In this document: piece after piece, positions 9,114 through 32,222 of the stretch
Numbering within the stretch: position 1 is the stretch's first letter
How the letters are laid out: each line of letters starts with the position of its first letter
DNA from: Terriglobia bacterium
GTDB taxonomy: Bacteria > Acidobacteriota > Terriglobia > Bryobacterales > Bryobacteraceae
Direction of reading: 5' to 3'
DNA length: 55,253 bases
NCBI GenBank assembly: GCA_020073345.1
Contig: JAIQFI010000043.1
Coordinates: 1-55,253 of the forward strand
The notes under the pieces: generated by a model
Told to the model about the DNA's origin: nothing
The model's database searches: none
The model's input: only the letters and a program-made list of their open reading frames with translations
Made by a program: the position numbers and the translations under genes

Positions 9114-9700
9114 CAAACAGAATCTACATAGTCCTCATCATCTCGGCGGTCCTGACATGCACCGCGAGCGCTCAGGCGACCACAAACATGACCGACCCAA
9201 CGAAGACAACATACGGACAAAGAAATCAGAATGCGCCAAAGGAGCTGGACGTATTTTCGTTCCTCATCGGGACGTGGGAGGGAAAGGGGAAGACCAAGCT
9301 CGATGACGGGACGGTTGCGGAGTATACGGTTACTTGGATTGGGCGTTACATCCTAGATGGAACTGCGATAGCCGACGAGTGTCACGGACCAGCACCAGAC
9401 GGGAGTCCGTACCTTGGGATCAACCTTCGGCAGTACGATCGGAACCGACAGACTTGGGTCGTAGAGTACTTGAACGTGTCCGGTTCGTTCTTGCGAAAAC
9501 TGGTTGATCATCGCTTGGGGTCTGTTACGGTACGTGGTCGGAGCGTGACGGTTGCGTCGGAATCGCCTGGAATGTCATACCGCGAGCATTATGACGTGGA
9601 GGATGGCGGCAACTGGGTTTTTCGGGCGGATAGCTCCACCGATGGCGGAAAGAGTTGGAATGAGGTACAGGCGGAGATAAGATTTCAACGGGTCAAGTAG
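9110..9700 (+). CDS. Secreted protein with a lipocalin-like/DUF1579-like fold
   Basis: 196 aa. A signal peptide (MTNRIYIVLIISAVLTCTASA) precedes LDVFSFLIGTWEGKGK, DGTVAEYTVTWIGRYILDGTAI and repeated beta-strand segments (YLGINLRQYDRNRQTWVVEY). The pattern 'FLIGTWEG...' is typical of DUF1579-like and similar one-barrel secreted proteins. It starts at ATG 9110 within the ATGA overlap with the preceding membrane protein. It is likely periplasmic; ligand and function unknown. The family call is from memory of the motif only. Confidence 0.65.
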   Translation: MTNRIYIVLIISAVLTCTASAQATTNMTDPTKTTYGQRNQNAPKELDVFSFLIGTWEGKGKTKLDDGTVAEYTVTWIGRYILDGTAIADECHGPAPDGSPYLGINLRQYDRNRQTWVVEYLNVSGSFLRKLVDHRLGSVTVRGRSVTVASESPGMSYREHYDVEDGGNWVFRADSSTDGGKSWNEVQAEIRFQRVK

Positions 9701-10371: not shown

Positions 10372-10800
10372 GTGCGAGAGACTGAAGGCACCTCGCTCTA
10401 CTCGCACCTCCTTCGCCCGGTTCTTTTTCGTTGTGACCCAGAATTCGCTCACGACCTGACCCTACAGACGCTTCACTACCTTGGTCCAGCCCTTGCTCTA
10501 ATCGCACCGTTCGTCAATCTCGCCGATCCGTTGCTTGAAACTGAATGCTTAGGCCTTCGATTCCACAACCCTATCGGCCTAGCAGCGGGTCTCGACAAAG
10601 ACGGAAAAGCTATTCACGCCTGGAAGCACCTCGGTTTTGGCTTCGCGGAAGTTGGGACCATCACGCCGCGCGCACAACCGGGCAATCCCCGACCTCGCTT
10701 GTTCCGACTGCGCACCCATCAAGCCATTATCAACCGCATGGGATTCAACAACGAAGGATCGGAGAGTCTCAAACGTCAGCTCCAAGGCCAACAACGCTCG
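10372..10800 (+). pseudogene. pyrD: 5' fragment of class 2 dihydroorotate dehydrogenase
   Basis: The first about 140 codons match quinone-dependent Pyr[21 protein letters not shown], then [48 protein letters not shown] and [10 protein letters not shown]. After [10 protein letters not shown] the sequence no longer resembles PyrD, so the remaining 60% of the gene (about 340 aa in total), including the catalytic serine and FMN phosphate site, is gone. The break falls near 10795, where the minus-strand DUF1330-like frame begins to end. The fragment cannot be functional. A GTG at 10372 was its likely start. Confidence 0.88.
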
Positions 10801-11236
10801 GCAACCGCCGTTCTACGAGCGGAAGAAGGCGTGAATCTTCCAAAGCGGCAATCCTGTGTCCGATGCCAGCCAAATACCCTCGATTCGACGCGAACGAGAG
10901 AAATGCTTCTACGCTATTCTGCCGGACTAGCATCGCCATGTCCCACAGTTCGCTTTCTGGCCCAATCAAGAACCGTCCACCATCTCCCAAAAACAGCACT
11001 TCGCCACCTGTTTCCGTGAGGTACGGCAGCGTATGACTGATGTATCGTTGAAAAGCCTCGGCACCGCTGATCGCCGTTGGCGGAGTAAGCTCCGGGCTTG
11101 CTGAATAATCTGCAATAGTGCGAAACCGCAGCAGGTTCAACATAACGACGCTGCCTCTGATCCCGCGCGCTACAAATGCCTGCCCCAGTTCCTGAGTCGG
11201 GGTCAGGTAGCAAGTATCTCTGTGTTCTTTGGTCAT
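10769..11236 (-). CDS. DUF1330-like protein with a C-terminal tail from a foreign junction
   Basis: 155 aa. The family pattern is visible as [51 protein letters not shown], and [17 protein letters not shown]. The dimeric alpha-beta barrel fold of this family is often found in small oxidoreductase-like or unknown proteins. The last dozen residues ([12 protein letters not shown]) read antisense through the pyrD fragment and look acquired when the two pieces were joined. Start ATG at 11236. The core is complete, so the protein may still work. Confidence 0.75.
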
Positions 11237-23757: not shown

Positions 23758-23997
23758 ATGACGGCAATTAAAGTAGTTCCGACAATGTTTTGCCTTGCGC
23801 TTTTTGGCGCAGCATTCTCACCCAGCGCAAAGGCAGACGACTATGACAAGAAAACGACCTTCACCTTCAGCCAACCCATCGAGATCCCGCCGGTCCACCT
23901 GCAGGGATTCCGCGTGTTACCAGCCGGAACGTATGTATTTAAGCTGGTAAACTCCAGTTCCAACCGGCACATCGTACAGATGTCAAGGGCGGAGTAA
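23758..23997 (+). pseudogene. Small acidobacterial secreted-protein gene truncated by IS21 insertion
   Basis: ATG 23758 with AAAGGAG upstream. Signal peptide FCLALFGAAFSPSAKA, then TTFTFSQPIEIPPVHLQGF, LPAGTYVFKLVNSSSNRHIVQ. The pattern is that of small secreted proteins frequent in Acidobacteria, usually 100-180 aa. At 23981 the IS21 left end begins, and the last residues (MSRAE and the TAA) come from the IS. The missing 3' half is not found on the far side of the element, at 26564 onward. The gene is therefore truncated and not simply split. Confidence 0.8.
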
Positions 23998-24030
23998 AAC
24001 TAGACCATTGGGGCGGAGAGAAAGTAGACC
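23981..24030 (+). repeat. IS21 istB-side terminus with two motif repeats
   Basis: The element starts TGTCAAGGGCGG. AAAACTAGACC (23996-24006) and AAAGTAGACC (24021-24030) are two direct copies of an AAAnnAGACC motif, which I read as IstA binding sites. The other end carries matching copies in inverted orientation. Confidence 0.65.
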
Positions 24031-24170
24031 GCTTCGTAGGCAGTGGATGCTTTGCTTTGAGGGATTTGCGGGGGCGGCGGGAGCGGAGGCCTGCGGCGCC
24101 CGTTAGGGCGGCGCGTTTAGGCAGGAGCAGACGCCGCTCCTGCAAATCGGCGCCGTAAACCAGCGGGTGA

Positions 24171-24935
24171 CTAGGAGCGAGGCTTCGCGGGGCGGCGTCG
24201 CTTGCTGTCTTTGAGCCGGTAACTTTCCCCGTTCATCTCCAGGATGTGGACGTGGTGCGTGAGCCGGTCCAGCAGGGCTCCGGTCAGCCGCTCCGATCCG
24301 AAGGCCTCGGTCCATTCGTTGAACGGCAGGTTGCTGGTGACCAGCGTGGCGCTGCGCTCATAGCGGCGGCTGAAGACCTCGAACAGCAGTTCGGCCCCGG
24401 TCTTGGACAACGGCACGAAGCCCAGCTCGTCGATGATCAGAAGCTCGAAGCTGGAGAGCATTTTCTGAAAGCGCATCAGGCGCCGTTCGTCCTTGGCTTC
24501 GATCAGCTCATGCGCCAGCGACGCCGCGGTCGTGAACCGGACGCGGAAACCCTTCTGGCAAGCGGCCAGGCCGAGGGCCAGCGCGATGTGCGTTTTGCCG
24601 GTGCCCGAGTTTCCCAGCGCCAGGACGTTCTCCTTGCGCTCGATGAACTCGCACCGGGCCAGATCCAACACCAGCGACTTATTTAAGGATGGGATCGCCA
24701 GAAAGTCGAAGGTGTCCAGGCTCTTGACCACGTCGAACTTGGCCTGGCGGATGCGACGCTCGGTGGCGCGCCGTTCGCGGTCCAGCAGTTCCAGTTCGCT
24801 CAAGCGCAGCAGGTAACGTGGAAAGTCCACGCCCTCGGCGGCGCACTGCTGCGCGACTTTGTCGTACTCGCGCAGGAACGTTGGCAGCCGCAACGTTTTC
24901 AGATGATGATCCAGTAAAACCTGGGGCGTGTCCAT
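24171..24935 (-). CDS. istB: IS21 helper ATPase IstB
   Basis: 254 aa. AAA+ ATPase with Walker A as GNSGTGKTHIALALG, Walker B as LLIIDELGF, and the sensor-1 ATLVTSNLPFNEW. Start MDTPQVLLDHHLKTLRLPTF at 24935; the frame is open further upstream but that part lies inside istA in another frame. IstB forms an oligomer on DNA that selects the target and activates IstA. The ATG is one base beyond the istA stop, so the two are translationally coupled. Confidence 0.96.
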   Translation of the reverse strand: MDTPQVLLDHHLKTLRLPTFLREYDKVAQQCAAEGVDFPRYLLRLSELELLDRERRATERRIRQAKFDVVKSLDTFDFLAIPSLNKSLVLDLARCEFIERKENVLALGNSGTGKTHIALALGLAACQKGFRVRFTTAASLAHELIEAKDERRLMRFQKMLSSFELLIIDELGFVPLSKTGAELLFEVFSRRYERSATLVTSNLPFNEWTEAFGSERLTGALLDRLTHHVHILEMNGESYRLKDSKRRRPAKPRS

Positions 24936-24936
24936 A

Positions 24937-26448
24937 TCAACCAGCACCCAAGAGTGCGAGGTAATCGGCGGCGGCGGTGGTCGCCACCTGCGCCAGAGGC
25001 AGGTGCGGATAGTTCTCCAGATCCAACCGCGCCGGCCTCTGCTCGATGCGGCACAGCAGCAGGTGCTTGACGGCGTCGAACGAGATGGTCCCCATCCGCA
25101 GGGCGTCGTCAATCGCCCGCTCTACTTCGGCCAGCGCGAACGTCTCCAGCAGCCGGAGGACTTGTACGCACTCGCGCTTGCCCTTCTTGCCCAGGCGCGC
25201 TTCCATCAGGCGGCGAAGTTCGTCGAAGCCGTCCGGCATCTTCCAGCCAACCAACGGCGCGGCCTGGTCCAGGGCGTTGGTCTTCTGCTCCAGCAGCGCC
25301 AGGTAATGCAGTGGGTTGAAGATCATGTCCTCGCGTTCATAGCTCCGCGGGTGACGCGCGATCACCTCGCTCCCGGCGCAGATCACCACTTCGTGCACGA
25401 ACCCTTTCACCAGCACTTCGCGATGTCCCCACTCCACCGGCACCGAGTAATCGTTGGTGCGATAGCGCACCAGCGACATCGAAGTCACCCGCGTGGATCG
25501 CTGGTCGCAGGCTTCATAGGGCGCCGCCGGCAGGGGCAGCAGCCGCTCCCGATCTTTCTCGAAACGCTCCCAGATCGTCTGCTGGTGTCCCCGTAGTTTG
25601 CGCTCCCGCCGCTTCTGAGATTGAACCAGCAAGTGAGCGTTGAACTCGTCCCAGGTGGCGAATCGTGGACGCGGCACCATGAAGTTCCGCCGCGCGTAGC
25701 CCACCAGTCCTTCCACCTTCCCCTTGTCATTGCCCTTGCCAGGGCGCCCGAACTTCTCCGCAAACAGATAATGGCTTTGCAGTTCGGTGAACGCTCGCGT
25801 TTTCGCCCGCGTCCCATCGCCCAAGATCCGCGCCACAGCGATCTTGGTGTTGTCGTACAGAATCGTGCGGGGCACGCCGCCGAAGTAGGCGAAGGCGTGG
25901 TTGTGCCCTTCCAGGAACGCCTCCGTCGTCTCGGCCGGAAAGGCCATCACGAAGCAGTCATCGGATTGCGGCAGGTCCATCGCCAGATAGTGCGCCTTGC
26001 ATTCCACACCGGCGATCACTACCATCGCTTCGCCGAAGTCGGCCTGCGCGTCTCCTGGCGGATGAGCCAGCGGCACAAACATCTCGCGCTGGCTCAGTTT
26101 CCTGAGCCGCACGTAGTCCTTCACGATCGTGTATCCGCCCGTGTAGCTGTGCTCGTCGCGCAGCCGCTCGAAGATCCGCTTGGCAGTGTGCCGCTGCTTC
26201 CTGCTTTCCGCCTTGTCTGCTTCCAGGATCTGGTCGATGGTTCCAACCCAGGCGTCCAGCTTGGGCCGACGCGCCGGTTGCTGCCGCCGGTAGCCCGGCG
26301 GCACCGAGTACCGCAGCATCTTCCGCACCGTCTCGCGAGCCAGCCCGAACTGCCGGGCCGCCTCGCGTTCACTCATCTTATCGACGACGACGGCTCGCCG
26401 CACCCGCGCGTATAACTCCACTGTGTACACCTCTCCGGTGTTCCACAA
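24937..26448 (-). CDS. istA: IS21 transposase IstA
   Basis: 503 aa. An N-terminal helix-turn-helix (SEREAARQFGLARETVRKML) is followed by a DDE catalytic core: first aspartate in AQADFGEAMV, second in TILYDNTKIAV, glutamate in GNDKGKVEGLVGYARRN. The start used is TTG at 26448; a GTG nine codons on, with a GGAGAGG-type site, is possible. IstA cuts and joins the element ends with IstB. Intact. Confidence 0.96.
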   Translation of the reverse strand: MWNTGEVYTVELYARVRRAVVVDKMSEREAARQFGLARETVRKMLRYSVPPGYRRQQPARRPKLDAWVGTIDQILEADKAESRKQRHTAKRIFERLRDEHSYTGGYTIVKDYVRLRKLSQREMFVPLAHPPGDAQADFGEAMVVIAGVECKAHYLAMDLPQSDDCFVMAFPAETTEAFLEGHNHAFAYFGGVPRTILYDNTKIAVARILGDGTRAKTRAFTELQSHYLFAEKFGRPGKGNDKGKVEGLVGYARRNFMVPRPRFATWDEFNAHLLVQSQKRRERKLRGHQQTIWERFEKDRERLLPLPAAPYEACDQRSTRVTSMSLVRYRTNDYSVPVEWGHREVLVKGFVHEVVICAGSEVIARHPRSYEREDMIFNPLHYLALLEQKTNALDQAAPLVGWKMPDGFDELRRLMEARLGKKGKRECVQVLRLLETFALAEVERAIDDALRMGTISFDAVKHLLLCRIEQRPARLDLENYPHLPLAQVATTAAADYLALLGAG

Positions 26449-26491
26449 AACATAAGCCTATGGGAATGTTCGATGGAACCAGTCTCCTGGC

Positions 26492-26563
26492 GGTCTGGTT
26501 TTGCTCCGCCAGTTAAGCCGCTCACGCGGCGTTTACTGGTCTATTTTGCATCCGGCGCTTATA
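26492..26563 (-). repeat. IS21 istA-side terminus with two motif repeats
   Basis: Read inward on the minus strand the end begins TATAAGCGCCGGATGC, followed by AAAATAGACC (26547-26539 region) and AAAACCAGACC (26502-26492). These mirror the two copies at the opposite end. The same terminus occurs at 55052 in the second copy. Confidence 0.7.
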
Positions 26564-26602
26564 GCAATTGAGTTCTGAAGGGGCAGCTAGGGAGAATAGG
26601 GA

Positions 26603-26628
26603 AAGCACCATCTTTTTAGATGGCGCTT
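26603..26628 (-). terminator. Hairpin ending putative ncRNA copy A
   Basis: AAGC-A-CCATCT, a TTTT loop, AGATGG-C-GCTT: two stem segments of 4 and 6 bp around an internal A/C mismatch. Read on the minus strand, a pyrimidine-rich run (TTCCC) follows. The U-tract is weak. Confidence 0.45.
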
Positions 26629-26903
26629 CAATGTTAAGCAAGACCCTGGGGTAAGTGCCTCCAGACGCTGACCTAATGTTTGTTCCTAATGCTTAGGGAA
26701 GTGGCCTTTGCTTCCTTAAACCAGTTGGCGCAGAATGGGGGCAAGTCCACAAAGACTGCGGGTGTGCAACCACCCGAAGCGACGATAGATGAGTAGACAT
26801 CCATCACCAGGACCAACCCCCGCTCGAACCTTCGAGAAAAGCTCAAGCGGAGCTTCGTCCGCATTCTTATCGCTTCACGCCGACTTCGTTGGAACACAAT
26901 CTA
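26603..26903 (-). ncRNA. Putative structured ncRNA, copy A
   Basis: About 300 nt without a conserved reading frame. On the minus strand TTGACA (26937-26932), 16 nt and TACTCT (26915-26910) form a promoter. Conserved blocks shared with copy B follow in the same order: GAATG (26866), the core (plus strand CATCCATCACCAGGA at 26798-26812, 25 of 26 bases over the full block), the hairpin CGGGTG/CACCCG (26759-26764 with 26771-26776), and GCTTAGGG (26691-26698). A hairpin at 26603-26628 ends the unit. It lies head to head with the 405-aa gene; the -35 element falls inside codons 5-6 of that gene. Strand assignment is an inference from promoter and terminator placement. Confidence 0.6.
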
Positions 26904-26919
26904 GACGGAAGAGTACCCA

Positions 26920-28137
26920 ATGACCGGAATCTGTCAAGTCTGCGGAAGACTCCTAGATCCGCGCGACCCGTCTCGCCTCTATCACGAACAAGATTGCGCT
27001 ATAGCTGCGCGAAGGGAACAGGGACGAAACGCGACAGGGCAATGGAATTTAAACATGAGAGCGTTGTGGGGGGACAACGGCTTTCGGAAGTACGAAGCCA
27101 ACCGCAAGTGGTTACGGAACTTCTCTCGTCGTGAGCTTTTATCCAATATGAACTCCCTCCTGCTGACAGCTCTTCTGGATAAGCAACCGTCCAGCGGAGG
27201 TGATCGCGAAGCCTACCAATTCGGGCAACTCGACCAAATCAGAGAATCCTTGATTGCCGGAGACCTCAATGGGGCCAGGATTAAAACCGCATCCTCATTA
27301 GCCCTAGCCAAGCTAACTCCTCCCCGAGATGCGGCACGCTTCCGGCTCTTGTGCGATGAGCTTCTGCGGGATGCCGGAGAACCGATTGAGGATATGACTC
27401 GCTCTTCTCTGGACAGTGCGTTTCAGCGCCTGCAGCAACGCACTCACTCCCTAATCCAGAGCTGGCTGGATTTTGGAGACTTCGATCGGGCAACAGCCGC
27501 GATGATCATGAGAGGAAATATCGAAGTAGAGACAAATCCGTCGGGCAGGAGCGACTACAAGAGAGCCGTAGGATATCTCGAAGCTGCCTACCGAATTCTG
27601 GATACCCAGCGGGCGCAAACTTCCAGGATCAAAAAGCTCAAACACCAGGCGTTGAGTCGCAAGATCAGCTTCATATCAGCATCTGGAGAACCGAAAGCTG
27701 TAAAACGCAGGGAGTTGGCAGACATGCAAGCGCTTGCCGATGAAATCAATACACCTCGCACTCTGCAGGAGACACATAAAGTTCTAGCGGCATATGAGAC
27801 GTCCTGGGGGGATCCACGGCGGGCCAACGAGGCGCTAGGCCACTTGAACCAAGTCAAGGCGATCGGCAACCTGACTCTCATCACCTCCTTTTCAATAATT
27901 CGCAGTGAGATCGATGCCCGCTTGGTGCGCAATGGGGCTGAAGATCGGGGTGTAGTACGTGATCTTGTGGAGCAGTGGGGGAGTTCCATCGCAACGTACG
28001 CCGGCGAAGGACAAACTCGAGTAATTCGTAGTTTGGACGTGCCGACTCGAACACCGATTCTGCGGTCTGGATTGGCGGTAGTCGAGGGCTACATCCCTTA
28101 TATGTATGACGAGCCAGAACTATTGAAATCCGATTAG
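26920..28137 (+). CDS. Unrecognised 405-aa protein with an N-terminal zinc-finger-like motif
   Basis: 405 aa. Residues 5-26 hold C-x2-C-x14-H-x3-C (CQVCG...YHEQDC), a plausible zinc site, followed by basic residues. From about residue 60 to the end the protein is almost entirely amphipathic helix (for example ARIKTASSLALAKLTPPRDAARF, RAVGYLEAAYRILDTQRAQT and KAVKRRELADMQALADEI), reminiscent of TPR-type solenoids but without a clear repeat consensus. I do not recognise it. ATG at 26920. It is divergent from putative ncRNA copy A, and the ncRNA promoter overlaps its first codons. Likely element-specific cargo. Confidence 0.7.
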   Translation: MTGICQVCGRLLDPRDPSRLYHEQDCAIAARREQGRNATGQWNLNMRALWGDNGFRKYEANRKWLRNFSRRELLSNMNSLLLTALLDKQPSSGGDREAYQFGQLDQIRESLIAGDLNGARIKTASSLALAKLTPPRDAARFRLLCDELLRDAGEPIEDMTRSSLDSAFQRLQQRTHSLIQSWLDFGDFDRATAAMIMRGNIEVETNPSGRSDYKRAVGYLEAAYRILDTQRAQTSRIKKLKHQALSRKISFISASGEPKAVKRRELADMQALADEINTPRTLQETHKVLAAYETSWGDPRRANEALGHLNQVKAIGNLTLITSFSIIRSEIDARLVRNGAEDRGVVRDLVEQWGSSIATYAGEGQTRVIRSLDVPTRTPILRSGLAVVEGYIPYMYDEPELLKSD

Positions 28138-28179
28138 CCAGGCCGCCTAACCTCCAGCAGACCAAGAACTGAAAAGAAA

Positions 28180-28202
28180 CCTCGACTCCTACTGAGTCGA
28201 GG
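28180..28202 (-). terminator. Rho-independent-type terminator of putative ncRNA copy B
   Basis: CCTCGACTC (28180-28188) and GAGTCGAGG (28194-28202) form a perfect 9-bp stem with a 5-nt loop. On the minus strand the stem is followed by TTTCTTTTC, so termination works for minus-strand transcripts; on the plus strand no U-tract follows. Confidence 0.75.
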
Positions 28203-28472
28203 CATCGACATCCAACCTTTCTACCCCTTAACCCTCCAGTCTTTGGGACGCCCCATTGCTTAGGGACGCACTTTTCGAAACCCGAGCCAAATTTCTTCAC
28301 ACTGAGGCTCGGGGATCAATCCCCGAAGGCTACGGGTGGTCGAAACACCCGGAGCGATGAACAGATGACTAAGGCATCCATCACCAGGATCAACCCCCGC
28401 ATAAGCTCCGCAACGCGAGCTCAGGCGGAGGCTCATTCCTGCCGGTTCCGGCATCCGTCCTTCCTCCGATTC
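28180..28472 (-). ncRNA. Putative structured ncRNA, copy B
   Basis: Second copy of the sequence at 26603-26903. Minus-strand TTGACA (28506-28501), 16 nt and TAGGCT (28484-28479) form the promoter. The block order is the same: GAATG (28438), core (plus strand CATCCATCACCAGGA at 28375-28389), hairpin CGGGTG/CACCCG (28333-28338 with 28346-28351) and GCTTAGGG (28258-28265), then a strong terminator at 28180-28202. Copy B alone has two mutually exclusive hairpins: CCCGAGCC/GGCTCGGG (28281-28288 with 28306-28313) or CGGGGAT/ATCCCCG (28310-28316 with 28319-28325), which could form a switch. It lies head to head with the 118-aa gene. No frame is shared with copy A. Confidence 0.62.
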
Positions 28473-28516
28473 GCCCTAAGCCTATCAAACCACGGCAGTT
28501 TGTCAAGGGGATCATC

Positions 28517-28873
28517 ATGAACACAAATAACCAGCGTCAGATTCTTTCCAGTCTATTAACGATATTGAACCGCCTCGCGCACGATTCGGACGGGAAGCTC
28601 AAAGAATGGGCGTTCAAGGCCAAGGTGGATGTTGCGGGCCACCTAATCGTTCGGGATTGGGCGGTGGTTAACGGTTCGCGGCCAAACGGAACTGTAGGCT
28701 TAACCGTCGCTGGCAAGAAACCCGCCCACGTGCCGCTAAGCTTGCTCGAACCCGACGCGCGCGCTCGCGCTCGGCAGCAGATTCGGTCCGTCCGCGCTAC
28801 GGCGCCGTTATCCGAATTCCTAGATGCCAAACAGCTTGAACCTCTTCGGCGGGCAGTCGGCGAGCGAGGATAG
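28517..28873 (+). CDS. Unrecognised 118-aa protein of the element cassette
   Basis: 118 aa. An N-terminal helix (QRQILSSLLTILNRLAHD), a beta-rich middle (VAGHLIVRDWAVVNGSRPNG) and a C-terminal helical, arginine-rich part. ATG at 28517; AAGGGGATC upstream is a fair ribosome binding site. It begins the 118-87-533 aa operon and is divergent from putative ncRNA copy B. The frame spacing to the next gene is 5 nt. Family unknown. Confidence 0.65.
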   Translation: MNTNNQRQILSSLLTILNRLAHDSDGKLKEWAFKAKVDVAGHLIVRDWAVVNGSRPNGTVGLTVAGKKPAHVPLSLLEPDARARARQQIRSVRATAPLSEFLDAKQLEPLRRAVGERG

Positions 28874-28878
28874 CCCAA

Positions 28879-29142
28879 ATGAGAATCCGGAGCGGTGACA
28901 GCCTTGGATTGTTTGAAGACGCTCTCGTGTCACTCCGGCGCGATGCAGAAGTCTTGGAGTCGATTTTTGAAGCTGTTTCGATCGGATTGCGCAGCGGTTC
29001 CCTTAGAATCCAGGCTCAGGCACTTCACGGTATGGCGCGGCAAGTGTCGGGGCTGACCGCTGAGTTTCTGGCGGAATCTTCGAAACGCAAACGCAAGGAA
29101 TCGCAGTTCTGCACAATAGCTGCGCCATGGGAGTACGTATGA
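28879..29142 (+). CDS. Unrecognised 87-aa helical protein of the element cassette
   Basis: 87 aa, predicted as mostly alpha-helical (EDALVSLRRDAEVLESIFEA, IQAQALHGMARQVSGLTAEF). It starts 5 nt after the 118-aa gene and its stop overlaps the next start in ATGA (29139-29142), so it is expressed together with the VWA-like protein. Possibly a small partner of that protein; this is inferred from the coupling only. Family unknown. Confidence 0.65.
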   Translation: MRIRSGDSLGLFEDALVSLRRDAEVLESIFEAVSIGLRSGSLRIQAQALHGMARQVSGLTAEFLAESSKRKRKESQFCTIAAPWEYV

Positions 29143-30740
29143 TCCCTCAGCCAGACACACTGACGGACGCGTATCGCCTGGCTCGCGACGGCGTCACCAG
29201 CCTTATTTCCCGGGCACAGAGCTACTCAACCTATGAGCGTCAGGAGATCGAACTTACCAATCAACCTAGAATTGCCGAGTTGGAAACCAGGAGAGAATTC
29301 CTCGTCGATAAACGTCGTGGGCTGCTACGTCGGATCGCCGAGGTTCCAATAAATCCTGCCAGCACTAAGTCTGGGCTTTCCAACCTGCTCGTCGCCGTCT
29401 TTCTCACAGGTGCAAGTTTTGGTTTGGCCGAGGCAACGGTCCAGCCTTTCAACTGGGGACTTCCGGGACACCTCTTTTGTGCAGGGATCGCCATTCTAGC
29501 GCCGTATGCCACCCATCAGTTCTTAAAGCACTATCCCTGGATAAATGTTGTTCGCATCATTGTTGCCCTCAGCTTCCTTTCGGCAATAGGAGCATTGCTT
29601 CCGTTAGCGGATATTAGGGCGAACCAGTTCGCTCGCTCTTTCACCAACATCAGTGATGCCGTCGTGCTTGACCGGATAGAGGAACCGCTGTCCCTGGCAG
29701 GTCGCGATTCCCAGCGCGATGTTGAACTCTTAGGCTGGGCTATGATTTTCGCGGCGCTAGGGCTGGAACTGACTTCCGGGCTTGCCTGGCACAACTTCAG
29801 CGAGGCAAGAAGCCTCGCAAACTTTGGTCTTTACCAGCGACTTCAAAAGGAACTCCTAAAAACGGAAAGGGAACTGTTGGTGGTAACCGTTGCTCTGAGG
29901 GAGCATCTATCGGCACCTGGTCGAAACTACGCGACGTTCTGGCGCGCCTTTCAGAAGGGCTTGTTGGATGGAACAGCCAGAGAGGGTCGCTCCGCGCGTC
30001 TCGGTTTGATGCTATTGGCAGTAATTCTTGCCACTCACACGCTGCAAGCTGCGGATACACTTCATTTGATTACCGCCATAGATGTCACCAAGACTGAGGC
30101 GGCGATAAGCAATACCGGCCAGTCGGAGTTTGATGAGAACAAGCGCGCGGTATCGCGCTTACTGGCCAGCCTTCCTCCCGGCGCCCGCGTAACGGCTCTA
30201 GGTGTGACGGACAGAAGTTTTACTAGTCCGTTTGTAATCTTTGAAGCGCGCCTCTCCGAGGACACGGGCTACTTTGGCAGTCGGCTTTCGGCCGGTAGGC
30301 GCCAGGTCGTTTCCGAATGGGAAAGGCGAACTCATAAACTTAGACCCATCGCCCCTCATACTGACCTACTGGGACTCTTCCAGCTCGCAGCGGAAGTCTT
30401 CTCACATTCCGACGCCGACCGCAGAACGATGGTAGTTTTCAGCGACATGAGGAACGACACTGGCGTTGATCTGGAGCATCCGGAGTCCATTGATGTGGGG
30501 AAGAGTATGGCTTACGTGGAGAAGCAAGGTCTATTTGCACCCCTCAAAGGAGTTGAAATTTTCGTGGCGGGAGCCGGAGAGCACGCAGGAAAGAAAGACA
30601 TTGGGTACTCGCTCGGGCTCAAGCGGTTCTGGGCCGAATATTTTCGACGCAGCGGAGCCACCCTTCGGATGTTTTCCACCACACGTGACATACAAGGGCT
30701 TGCGAAGGCGGTTTCCGTTGGAGTGGCACCAAAAAGGTAA
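29139..30740 (+). CDS. Membrane-anchored VWA-like protein of the element cassette
   Basis: 533 aa from ATG 29139, chosen because it forms the ATGA overlap with the preceding gene (an ATG 12 nt earlier is possible). An N-terminal helical region precedes four hydrophobic helices (about 80-99, 111-129, 137-157, 199-214). A coiled-coil-like linker and a further hydrophobic segment (288-304) follow. From 309 on a von Willebrand A-like domain is visible: LITAIDVTKTEAA (a D-x-T-x-T variant of the MIDAS motif, 315-319), ARVTALGVTD, and TMVVFSDMRND (435 onward). VWA domains bind protein partners through a metal ion. Location of the domain (outside the membrane or in the cytoplasm) is not certain. Family not otherwise recognised. 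Confidence 0.7.
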   Translation: MIPQPDTLTDAYRLARDGVTSLISRAQSYSTYERQEIELTNQPRIAELETRREFLVDKRRGLLRRIAEVPINPASTKSGLSNLLVAVFLTGASFGLAEATVQPFNWGLPGHLFCAGIAILAPYATHQFLKHYPWINVVRIIVALSFLSAIGALLPLADIRANQFARSFTNISDAVVLDRIEEPLSLAGRDSQRDVELLGWAMIFAALGLELTSGLAWHNFSEARSLANFGLYQRLQKELLKTERELLVVTVALREHLSAPGRNYATFWRAFQKGLLDGTAREGRSARLGLMLLAVILATHTLQAADTLHLITAIDVTKTEAAISNTGQSEFDENKRAVSRLLASLPPGARVTALGVTDRSFTSPFVIFEARLSEDTGYFGSRLSAGRRQVVSEWERRTHKLRPIAPHTDLLGLFQLAAEVFSHSDADRRTMVVFSDMRNDTGVDLEHPESIDVGKSMAYVEKQGLFAPLKGVEIFVAGAGEHAGKKDIGYSLGLKRFWAEYFRRSGATLRMFSTTRDIQGLAKAVSVGVAPKR

Positions 30741-30970: not shown

Positions 30971-32080
30971 ATGTCGATTCAGAGAGTAAGCGACGGAGTT
31001 TGGGATGTCCGTTGGCGAGAAGGGGGAAGAAACCGAAGCACTCGGGTGAACGGATCGCACGAGCTGGCGAAGAAGGTACTTCGTAAGAAGATGTCAGCTC
31101 GGGACGAAAACCGGCACCTGGATGTAAGGCGAGAGGTCAATTTCCGAATGTCTGCTTTGGTCAAACGGTACGAGGAAACGTATTCGAAGCACAAAAAATC
31201 CTATGACCGCGAGAAAAGCATCCTCCAAGGAATTCGTGGAGAACTCGGCCAGTTATTTGTTCGGGAAGTGGACGGCCCGGCCGTTCACCGCTGGTACCGG
31301 GGACTAACGGAAAGTAAGAAGCTATCCGCTGGAACTGCGGTTCGGCACTTCAACGTTATGCACCACATGATGGAGAAGGCTTCGACGCTTTGGTCGAAGG
31401 AAACCGGTCTTGACCGGAATCCGGCTGATCTGATCGAAGTTTGCCGACCGGATGACCAGCGGGAACGCTACCTTTCCGGAGAAGAGATCGTCGCTCTCAA
31501 AGCTAACCTCGATCAGAAAATGCATCGAGCCGATAGCCGCGAGATCAACCGCACGTTTTTCCGGTTGCGCATGATCGTACTGATCGCGCTAACAACCGGG
31601 ATGCGGATGGGCGAAGTCTCCGATCTGGTTTGGAGTGACCTCCGTTATAGTGAACGGCTTATCGCTGTGCGCTCGAAGCTCAAAGGCGGGAAGATTCGGT
31701 ACGTGCCGATGACTCCGGAACTTGCCGAAGAACTTCGCAGGTATCCTGTCGAAATAGGGGAGGGTAAGCTCTTCCCACTGCGGCAGGATTCTAAGGGCGA
31801 ACGGCAGCGGGTCGAACATAGCTTCGCAACCATCCTCAAGCTAGCTGGTATTTCAGGCTTCCGTTTTCACGATCTCAGGCACACGTTCGCATCTTGGTAC
31901 ATGATGAACGGCGGAGATCTCTACGAGTTGGCAAAGATTCTGGGTCATTCGAACATTCGGATGACCGAGCGTTACGCCAAGCTGGGCAAAACGCACATCG
32001 CGAGGACCGGCGATACGGCGCGCGGAATGTGGAAACTAATGGCGGGAGAGAAAGGCGAACAGGCGAACGTAGCTGTTTGA
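30971..32080 (+). CDS. Tyrosine-type site-specific integrase
   Basis: 369 aa. The catalytic tetrad is complete: Arg212 in TTGMRMGEV, His300 and Arg303 in FHDLRHTFASW, His326 in LGHSNIR and Tyr335 in ERYAKLG. The N-terminal SAM-like core-binding domain spans about 60-155. Phage-type integrases of this kind recombine at tRNA genes. A good ribosome binding site (AAAGGAG) precedes ATG 30971. It ends 67 nt from the CCA end of tRNA-Phe, which is the likely attachment site. Confidence 0.95.
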   Translation: MSIQRVSDGVWDVRWREGGRNRSTRVNGSHELAKKVLRKKMSARDENRHLDVRREVNFRMSALVKRYEETYSKHKKSYDREKSILQGIRGELGQLFVREVDGPAVHRWYRGLTESKKLSAGTAVRHFNVMHHMMEKASTLWSKETGLDRNPADLIEVCRPDDQRERYLSGEEIVALKANLDQKMHRADSREINRTFFRLRMIVLIALTTGMRMGEVSDLVWSDLRYSERLIAVRSKLKGGKIRYVPMTPELAEELRRYPVEIGEGKLFPLRQDSKGERQRVEHSFATILKLAGISGFRFHDLRHTFASWYMMNGGDLYELAKILGHSNIRMTERYAKLGKTHIARTGDTARGMWKLMAGEKGEQANVAV

Positions 32081-32100: not shown

Positions 32101-32146
32101 GAGGTAAAAAGTCGTGTTTCTGGTTGCCGACAAGTTGTTTAGAATG

Positions 32147-32222
32147 TGGTGGCCAGGGACGGAATCGAACCGCCGACGCCAGCCTTTTCAGGGCTGCGCT
32201 CTACCAACTGAGCTACCTGGCC
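32147..32222 (-). tRNA. tRNA-Phe (anticodon GAA), CCA encoded
   Basis: Clover-leaf on the minus strand: acceptor GGCCAGG pairs with CCTGGCC. The D arm (GCTC...GAGC), anticodon stem CAGCC/GGCTG with loop CTGAAAA (anticodon GAA), and T arm (GGCGG TTCGATT CCGTC, a stem with near-complete pairing) are all present. Discriminator A is followed by an encoded CCA (TGG at 32147-32149 on the plus strand). The 3' end faces the integrase, so this gene is the probable attachment site of the neighbouring element and remains intact. Confidence 0.97.

Follow-up and report, generated by a model that had tools for sequence, protein, structure and literature searches.

What are two diverged copies of the same element doing on either side of a single gene, and is each of them read as DNA, as protein or as RNA? 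The question is raised by a 55,253-nucleotide (nt) stretch of a Terriglobia bacterium of the family Bryobacteraceae (assembly GCA_020073345.1, contig JAIQFI010000043.1), here called the window, in which two units of the minus strand flank an open reading frame (ORF) of 405 amino acids (aa) inside a probable integration island. An earlier reading of the bare letters, the original prediction, had proposed that a non-coding RNA gene of about 290-300 nt stands here in duplicate in a mobile setting, with a promoter and a terminator for each copy and no class that it could recognise. Judged by their sequence, the units appear to be structured minus-strand RNA and not protein, and each would be transcribed as a non-coding RNA of about 295 nt; for what such RNAs might do, the reading that I prefer, at a probability of about 0.42, is that each locally regulates the island gene lying head to head with it.

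That the two units are copies of one another is borne out by a local alignment of their whole length, whose score of 79 no shuffle among 1000 approaches (maximum 28), and by motifs that recur in the same order and spacing. The core of about 125 nt gives a score of 46 that none of 1000 shuffles reaches, whereas its flanks align no better than shuffles (119 of 1000 for the 5' part and 289 of 1000 for the 3' part), so that sequence homology is established for some 125 nt and, beyond the core, is carried by order, spacing and short motifs alone. Within the core, the 26-base stretch said to hold 25 identical bases does so (GCGGGGGTTGRTCCTGGTGATGGATG), and 27 of 29 bases agree between 26795-26823 and 28372-28400; the CGGGTG/CACCCG hairpin (loop of 6 nt in copy 1, 7 nt in copy 2) and the TCCCTAAGCA motif were also correctly seen in both units, the motif lying 124 and 134 nt, and CTGGAGG 159 and 161 nt, downstream of the start of the core strand.

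The case for RNA, and for the minus strand, comes from how the copies fold and how they differ. Against dinucleotide shuffles the minus strand of the units folds with z scores of -4.17 (26606-26863) and -4.32 (28180-28450), that of the cores with -4.83 and -5.81 (copies 1 and 2), and the folding energy is lower on the minus than on the plus strand in both copies. When 41 pairs, which make up hairpin P0, helix P1 and the two hairpins P2 and P3, are scored over the two copies, standard pairs fill 81 of 82 cells on the minus strand against 65 of 82 on the plus strand, and of the 12 pairs that vary, 11 are kept in both copies on the minus strand and 2 on the plus strand; the copies differ at 14 of 82 paired and 24 of 44 unpaired columns, and many pairs change by way of G-U, a wobble that the opposite DNA strand would show as a mismatch. 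The consensus fold of the core reaches -54.6 kcal/mol, as against -23.3 ± 3.5 for column shuffles and -29.7 ± 4.8 and -28.0 ± 4.9 for copies whose substitutions had been moved (each set of 500 has no value so low), while the plus-strand consensus stops at -27.5 with weaker contrasts (1, 3 and 9 of 500), and sliding the partner by 1-3 columns lowers pairing to 41-49%. Pairing on the minus strand, fold controls and energies together support the non-coding RNA gene, in two copies and of about the size first proposed.

Where these RNAs would begin had to be moved. The pattern TTGACA-N16-TANNCT does stand in register on the minus strand of both units, as claimed, and its broader form, TTGACA-N16-18-TANNNT, occurs 4 times in the window where 0.25 are expected. 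The GAATG that had been named as the start is present in both (26866-26862; 28438-28434), but it lies 44 and 41 nt downstream of the last base of the -10 hexamers, which places the predicted starts near 26903 and 28472 and not at GAATG. In copy 1 the -35 falls within the first codons of the 405-aa ORF, whose ATG at 26920 is preceded by a GGAAGAG that the -10 overlaps; in copy 2 the -35 overlaps the AAGGGGA before the ATG at 28517, which opens a 118-aa ORF. The coordinates are collected in Table 1.

Table 1. The two RNA units, their elements and the genes of the island, in window coordinates
Feature	Positions	Strand	Remarks
RNA copy 1, predicted transcript	26606..26903	minus	alignment, fold; start inferred from -10 position
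RNA copy 2, predicted transcript	28180..28472	minus	alignment, fold; start inferred
Conserved core, copy 1 (hairpin P0, helix P1, hairpins P2 and P3)	26735..26862	minus	
Conserved core, copy 2	28309..28441	minus	
Promoter-like TTGACA-N16-TACTCT, copy 1	26910..26937	minus	overlaps Shine-Dalgarno (SD) sequence and first codons of 405-aa ORF
Promoter-like TTGACA-N16-TAGGCT, copy 2	28479..28506	minus	-35 overlaps SD of 118-aa ORF
Central strand GCGGGGGUUGGUCC, copy 1	26810..26823	minus	
Central strand GCGGGGGUUGAUCC, copy 2	28387..28400	minus	
P0, upstream partner of central strand, copy 1	26847..26860	minus	
P0, upstream partner of central strand, copy 2	28425..28439	minus	
P1, downstream partner of central strand, copy 1	26737..26748	minus	
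P1, downstream partner of central strand, copy 2	28311..28322	minus	
P3 hairpin CGGGTG/CACCCG, copy 1	26759..26776	minus	
P3 hairpin CGGGTG/CACCCG, copy 2	28333..28351	minus	
TCCCTAAGCA motif, copy 1	26690..26699	minus	
TCCCTAAGCA motif, copy 2	28257..28266	minus	
Terminal hairpin, copy 1	26606..26626	minus	weak terminator (TTT only after stem)
Intrinsic terminator, copy 2	28179..28203	minus	terminator scan
IS21-like element (istA, istB), left bound of island	23985..26563	minus	Pfam; ends approximate
405-aa ORF between the RNAs (P0002)	26920..28137	plus	N-terminal CxxC...HxxxxC
118-aa ORF, divergent from RNA copy 2 (P0003)	28517..28873	plus	
87-aa ORF (P0004)	28879..29142	plus	
537-aa ORF (P0001)	29127..30740	plus	membrane segments by eye; weak von Willebrand A (VWA)-like C-terminus
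Tyrosine integrase (P0005)	30971..32080	plus	Pfam PF00589 3.2e-32; PHROGs integrase
Transfer RNA (tRNA)-Phe	32147..32222	minus	

It is this layout, a promoter lying over a neighbour's ribosome-binding site and found twice, that makes regulation of the divergent genes the likeliest role, with copy 1 acting on the 405-aa ORF and copy 2 on the set of 118-, 87- and 537-aa genes. Since the RNA promoter sits where ribosomes would bind the transcript of the divergent gene, transcription of the RNA would interfere with that messenger RNA (mRNA), and an mRNA that began upstream would have in its leader the full complement of the RNA's 5' end; each RNA thus probably limits its neighbour both by competing transcription and by antisense pairing with the leader. 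The folded, conserved core might serve the stability of the RNA or contact with a protein, and could refold once the leader of the mRNA has captured the 5' strand. It also supports such a local role that the host has a 6S RNA and a transfer-messenger RNA (tmRNA) of its own elsewhere.

Several results weigh against this reading and have to be set beside it. On the plus strand, too, folding is stronger than in shuffles (z -2.07 and -4.28 for the units, -2.86 and -4.74 for the cores), because strong hairpins fold on both strands; the structure was derived from the very two sequences on which it is scored, and shuffling pairs between two rows gives covariation no support, as 127 of 500 shuffles reach the observed value. 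A generic promoter scan names neither RNA promoter, as each -10 hexamer has 3 of the 6 bases of TATAAT, its promoter count is not above that of shuffles (2 against 2.7), and it gives no promoter just upstream of either divergent ORF, so that the antisense overlap is assumed. The terminator expected in each copy is good in copy 2, but in copy 1 nothing except TTTCCC comes after the closing hairpin, and this hairpin is missing from the terminator scan, which does name the P3 hairpin of copy 1 (26776-26759) and lists 9 terminator-like sites where shuffles have 6.1 ± 2.2. Pairing of the RNAs in trans to the starts of other island genes is not clear, the best case being equalled by 9 of 100 shuffles, and the link between RNA and divergent gene is known from these two units alone, no homologues having been found.

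A role in trans, or as part of a ribonucleoprotein with the 405-aa or 537-aa protein, is nearly as likely as antisense regulation because the core is conserved beyond what antisense pairing needs, and I regard it as possible, if tentative: the RNAs would be antitoxin, decoy or scaffold, and the order RNA-gene-RNA would be a working unit. Such a role would suit a core that is far more conserved than its flanks (25 of 26 bases in its best stretch), the CxxC...HxxxxC with which the 405-aa ORF opens and the possible conflict-type genes found near distant relatives of the 537-aa protein. It is set back by the absence of tandem repeats like those of type III antitoxins and of any PADLOC match, and by how little can be said of the 405-aa protein, which finds itself only in 200 genomes of the family and nothing in viral contigs, plasmids or phages, has four other matches at E 0.005-0.009 among 396 genomes of the phylum (the two inspected, L076 and L077, show no likeness) and yields a single-sequence structure model that is too poor for use (mean predicted local distance difference test score 36.7). 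More unlikely is a new small-RNA class with two states, which would sense transcription of the neighbouring gene as its central strand, GCGGGGGUUGRUCC, swaps an upstream for a downstream partner. This nearly invariant strand can pair upstream, as hairpin P0, or downstream, in a three-way junction P1-P2-P3, and the alternative duplexes have almost the same energies (P0 / P1: -20.2 / -20.0 kcal/mol in copy 1 and -18.7 / -18.1 in copy 2); its single change, G to A, is paralleled by C to U in both partners, and shuffles reach its complementarity in 23 and 8 of 1000 cases downstream and 39 and 13 of 1000 upstream. A conserved strand with two alternative partners suggests a switch, which would be thrown when the leader of the divergent mRNA, the complement of the upstream strand, pairs with it; folding at full length, however, favours P0 by 8.2 and 16.4 kcal/mol, and the substitution control, from which two P0 columns were omitted (column 8, where both copies have G opposite G, and column 5, which copy 2 leaves unpaired), is strong one way only, the chance of doing as well being 0.006 / 0.39 for P1 and 0.005 / 0.59 for P0.

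If the units acted on the other strand, they would be 5' leaders of the 405-aa and 118-aa genes, riboswitch-like or attenuators, and both do lie directly upstream of a plus-strand ORF, with cores 57 and 75 nt from the start codon, on a strand that itself folds better than shuffles; yet the pair counts given above (65 against 81 of 82 cells, 2 against 11 of 12 varying pairs), the lower energy of the minus strand in both copies and a TTGACA and a terminator that read on the minus strand make a cis-regulatory leader of this kind improbable. Still less probable is a DNA site, a pair of recombination, replication or transposition hairpins framing the 405-aa gene as a cassette, as direct repeats with strong hairpins on either side of one gene in an integrase island might suggest: the many G-U changes would be mismatches on the other DNA strand, TTGACA is in register in both units, copy 2 has its terminator, and no integron-like core site was seen by eye, no model search having been made for it. 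The remnant of a protein gene is the most remote of these readings, and a protein gene was rejected. Minus-strand open frames of 74 and 28 aa do carry RGLVLVMD and RGLILVMD, but they share these eight residues only and are then split at once by one-base indels, which the core alignment has at four columns, the lone difference in the peptide is non-synonymous, and the substitutions follow pairing; a protein is therefore unlikely, and the earlier statement that the units have no reading frame in common stands.

Is the RNA then a known one? At the gathering cut-off Rfam 15 finds the tRNA alone in the 55,253 bases, and up to E 10 the single match over a copy is Bp2_287 (13.6 bits where the cut-off is 70, E 4.2), so the class that the original prediction could not recognise has no Rfam family of any weight. 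Among named candidates, 6S RNA (RF00013) and tmRNA (RF00023 or ARAGORN) have no match at the units, the genome's own being on contig C50; a type III toxin-antitoxin RNA was rejected for want of a tandem repeat in 26560-28560 and of a nuclease family among the island proteins, and an OMEGA/TnpB-like guide for want of a Pfam transposase of such type among the island ORFs scanned. The covariance model R1, which describes the core, found only these two copies, in their own genome, in draws of 399 genomes of the class and 396 of the phylum (the draws overlap, and in the results shown stricter filters with eight scored candidates were usual), and in the window it found no third copy, the next best score being 15.8 bits (E 0.18) on the opposite strand of copy 2.

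Looser searches led no further. A core pattern with at most 3 mismatches occurs in 49 of 200 family genomes, the own genome included, at 58 places listed, of which 2 are the copies; 31 of the other 56 were inspected, and all have 2-3 mismatches and look like chance or coding sequence by eye, one of the places (L030) also having CCTAAG downstream and nothing else similar. In viral contigs the core patterns picked out 13 + 5 stretches (15 distinct), none convincing on reading, three of them with paired matches that are a glycine-rich coding repeat and the others resembling chance; ten further viral stretches gave a best core-model score of 14.7 bits (E 0.44), and a final viral pattern gave 0. 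Exact core patterns in the species-genome collection returned 9 stretches, none matching the core model to E 10, plasmids gave no blastn match to the RNA, and in phages the RNA search turned up a 37-base stretch in three records. Four regions around relatives of the 537-aa protein (best 12.5 bits, E 0.75) and 20 regions around tRNA-Phe ends (no match to E 10) were equally empty for the core model, and searches of one open-licence paper library turned up no description of this RNA by title or opening of the abstract. Outside the core the copies have diverged so widely that an old family is probable, and that no other genome searched has it would reflect either a rare RNA or gaps in the collections.

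The mobile setting claimed for the pair also holds: a tyrosine integrase adjoins a tRNA gene, as in tRNA-associated islands, integrases 68-71% identical to it occur in 3 of 20 related regions at tRNA-Phe ends, and an IS21-like element lies about 40 nt from copy 1. The stretch of tRNA-Phe and MatE is matched in 21 of 21 genomes of the genus, several of which carry further partial tRNA-Phe ends, among them the own genome, where the 3' end (window 32132-32197) recurs on C1:10737-10785 and C61:10390-10452 (49 bases at 100% and 63 at 95%). Because the related integrases bring cargo that differs by its ORFs and the RNA is in none of the 20 regions, the tRNA-Phe locus is, on this comparison, an integration hotspot with changing cargo of which the RNA pair is a variable part. 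The genes of the right flank (MatE, MnmE, YidC) and of the left flank (DUF4197, MscL, DUF481, AsmA) look ordinary, and since DUF4197 and MscL are absent from the 20 regions around relatives' tRNA-Phe ends, the genes on the left may not be those that originally adjoined the tRNA. No same-strand repeat of at least 14 bases in the window (the longest has 12) puts a copy of the tRNA 3' end at the far end of the island. The right end of the IS21-like element is set by a match to a relative that runs to 26563 and its left end was read by eye; for its target duplication there is only a 5-base candidate match, and an ORF from 23758, just beyond it, seems by eye to be cut off. Together with the lack of a tRNA end on the left, these signs suggest a rearrangement in which the island may have lost its left end at this element.

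As for the other cargo, the 405-, 118- and 87-aa proteins fall into no family at cut-off in Pfam or NCBIfam and have no match in PADLOC or PHROGs, and the 118-aa protein has no relative in viral or plasmid searches. The 537-aa protein touches VWA_2 at E 0.012, which is under cut-off, and has distant relatives in four genomes besides its own among 299 and on one plasmid. Its VWA-like part raised the idea of a Ro60/Y RNA pair, which was rejected: the protein shows membrane segments by eye, Pfam yields no TROVE up to E 0.1, and nothing in PDB matches it up to E 1. In one of the genomes (L074, 6267-17001 on contig 14 of G214) the relatives are a membrane protein, by eye, and a VWA-like protein, whose neighbours are an array of 61 CRISPR-like repeats, an ORF that by eye resembles a reverse transcriptase and a protein with a weak likeness to CARF (E 0.0056, short of the cut-off); a palindromic repeat pair of the GGTGTCTGTCCCT type (9134-9218 and 10777-10860) stands on either side of the reverse transcriptase-like ORF. 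On the plasmid (L126, NZ_CP043858.1, 33450-43812) a relative of the C-terminal part adjoins genes for zinc-ribbon, OmpA-family and NYN-domain proteins, possibly a conflict system; no similarity links the zinc-ribbon protein to the 405-aa ORF.

If the two units are expressed, they represent an RNA family outside Rfam, found in no other genome searched and kept by one island in two diverged copies, as would be expected in such a setting of a mobile element's own control or conflict RNA, and the head-to-head layout and the two alternative helices would offer a concrete mechanism at a single locus. If they are not expressed, they are still a clean case of strand-specific structural conservation within a variable integration hotspot.

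Which known systems do they resemble? Acido-1 and Acido-Lenti-1 are bacterial candidate RNAs that are given Rfam accessions, whereas the units here match no Rfam family; the STAXI motif, described in the same source as tandem, near integrase genes and consisting mainly of repeated pseudoknots, is likewise a candidate bacterial RNA near an integrase, and pseudoknots were not seen in the units here, for which no dedicated search was made (PMC2864571). The ornate RNAs GOLLD and ROOL are comparable as structured non-coding RNAs of mobile DNA with no function assigned, and differ in that the present units have no Rfam match. GOLLD and ROOL are also much longer. Closer are the cis-encoded antisense RNAs and type I toxin-antitoxin loci such as hok/sok, in which a small RNA lies opposite a gene of a mobile element, near or over its translation start, as the predicted RNAs here would; in both units promoter hexamers overlap the SD of the divergent ORF. 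Alternative foldings are used by hok-type RNAs, too. Unlike hok/sok, the units measure about 300 nt and have a highly conserved core of several hairpins, two paralogous units stand beside two different genes, of 405 and 118 aa, and the frames of at least 15 aa on the RNA strand include none that is toxin-like by eye. Among the systems compared, the pair would come nearest in its working to the cis-antisense RNAs of mobile elements.

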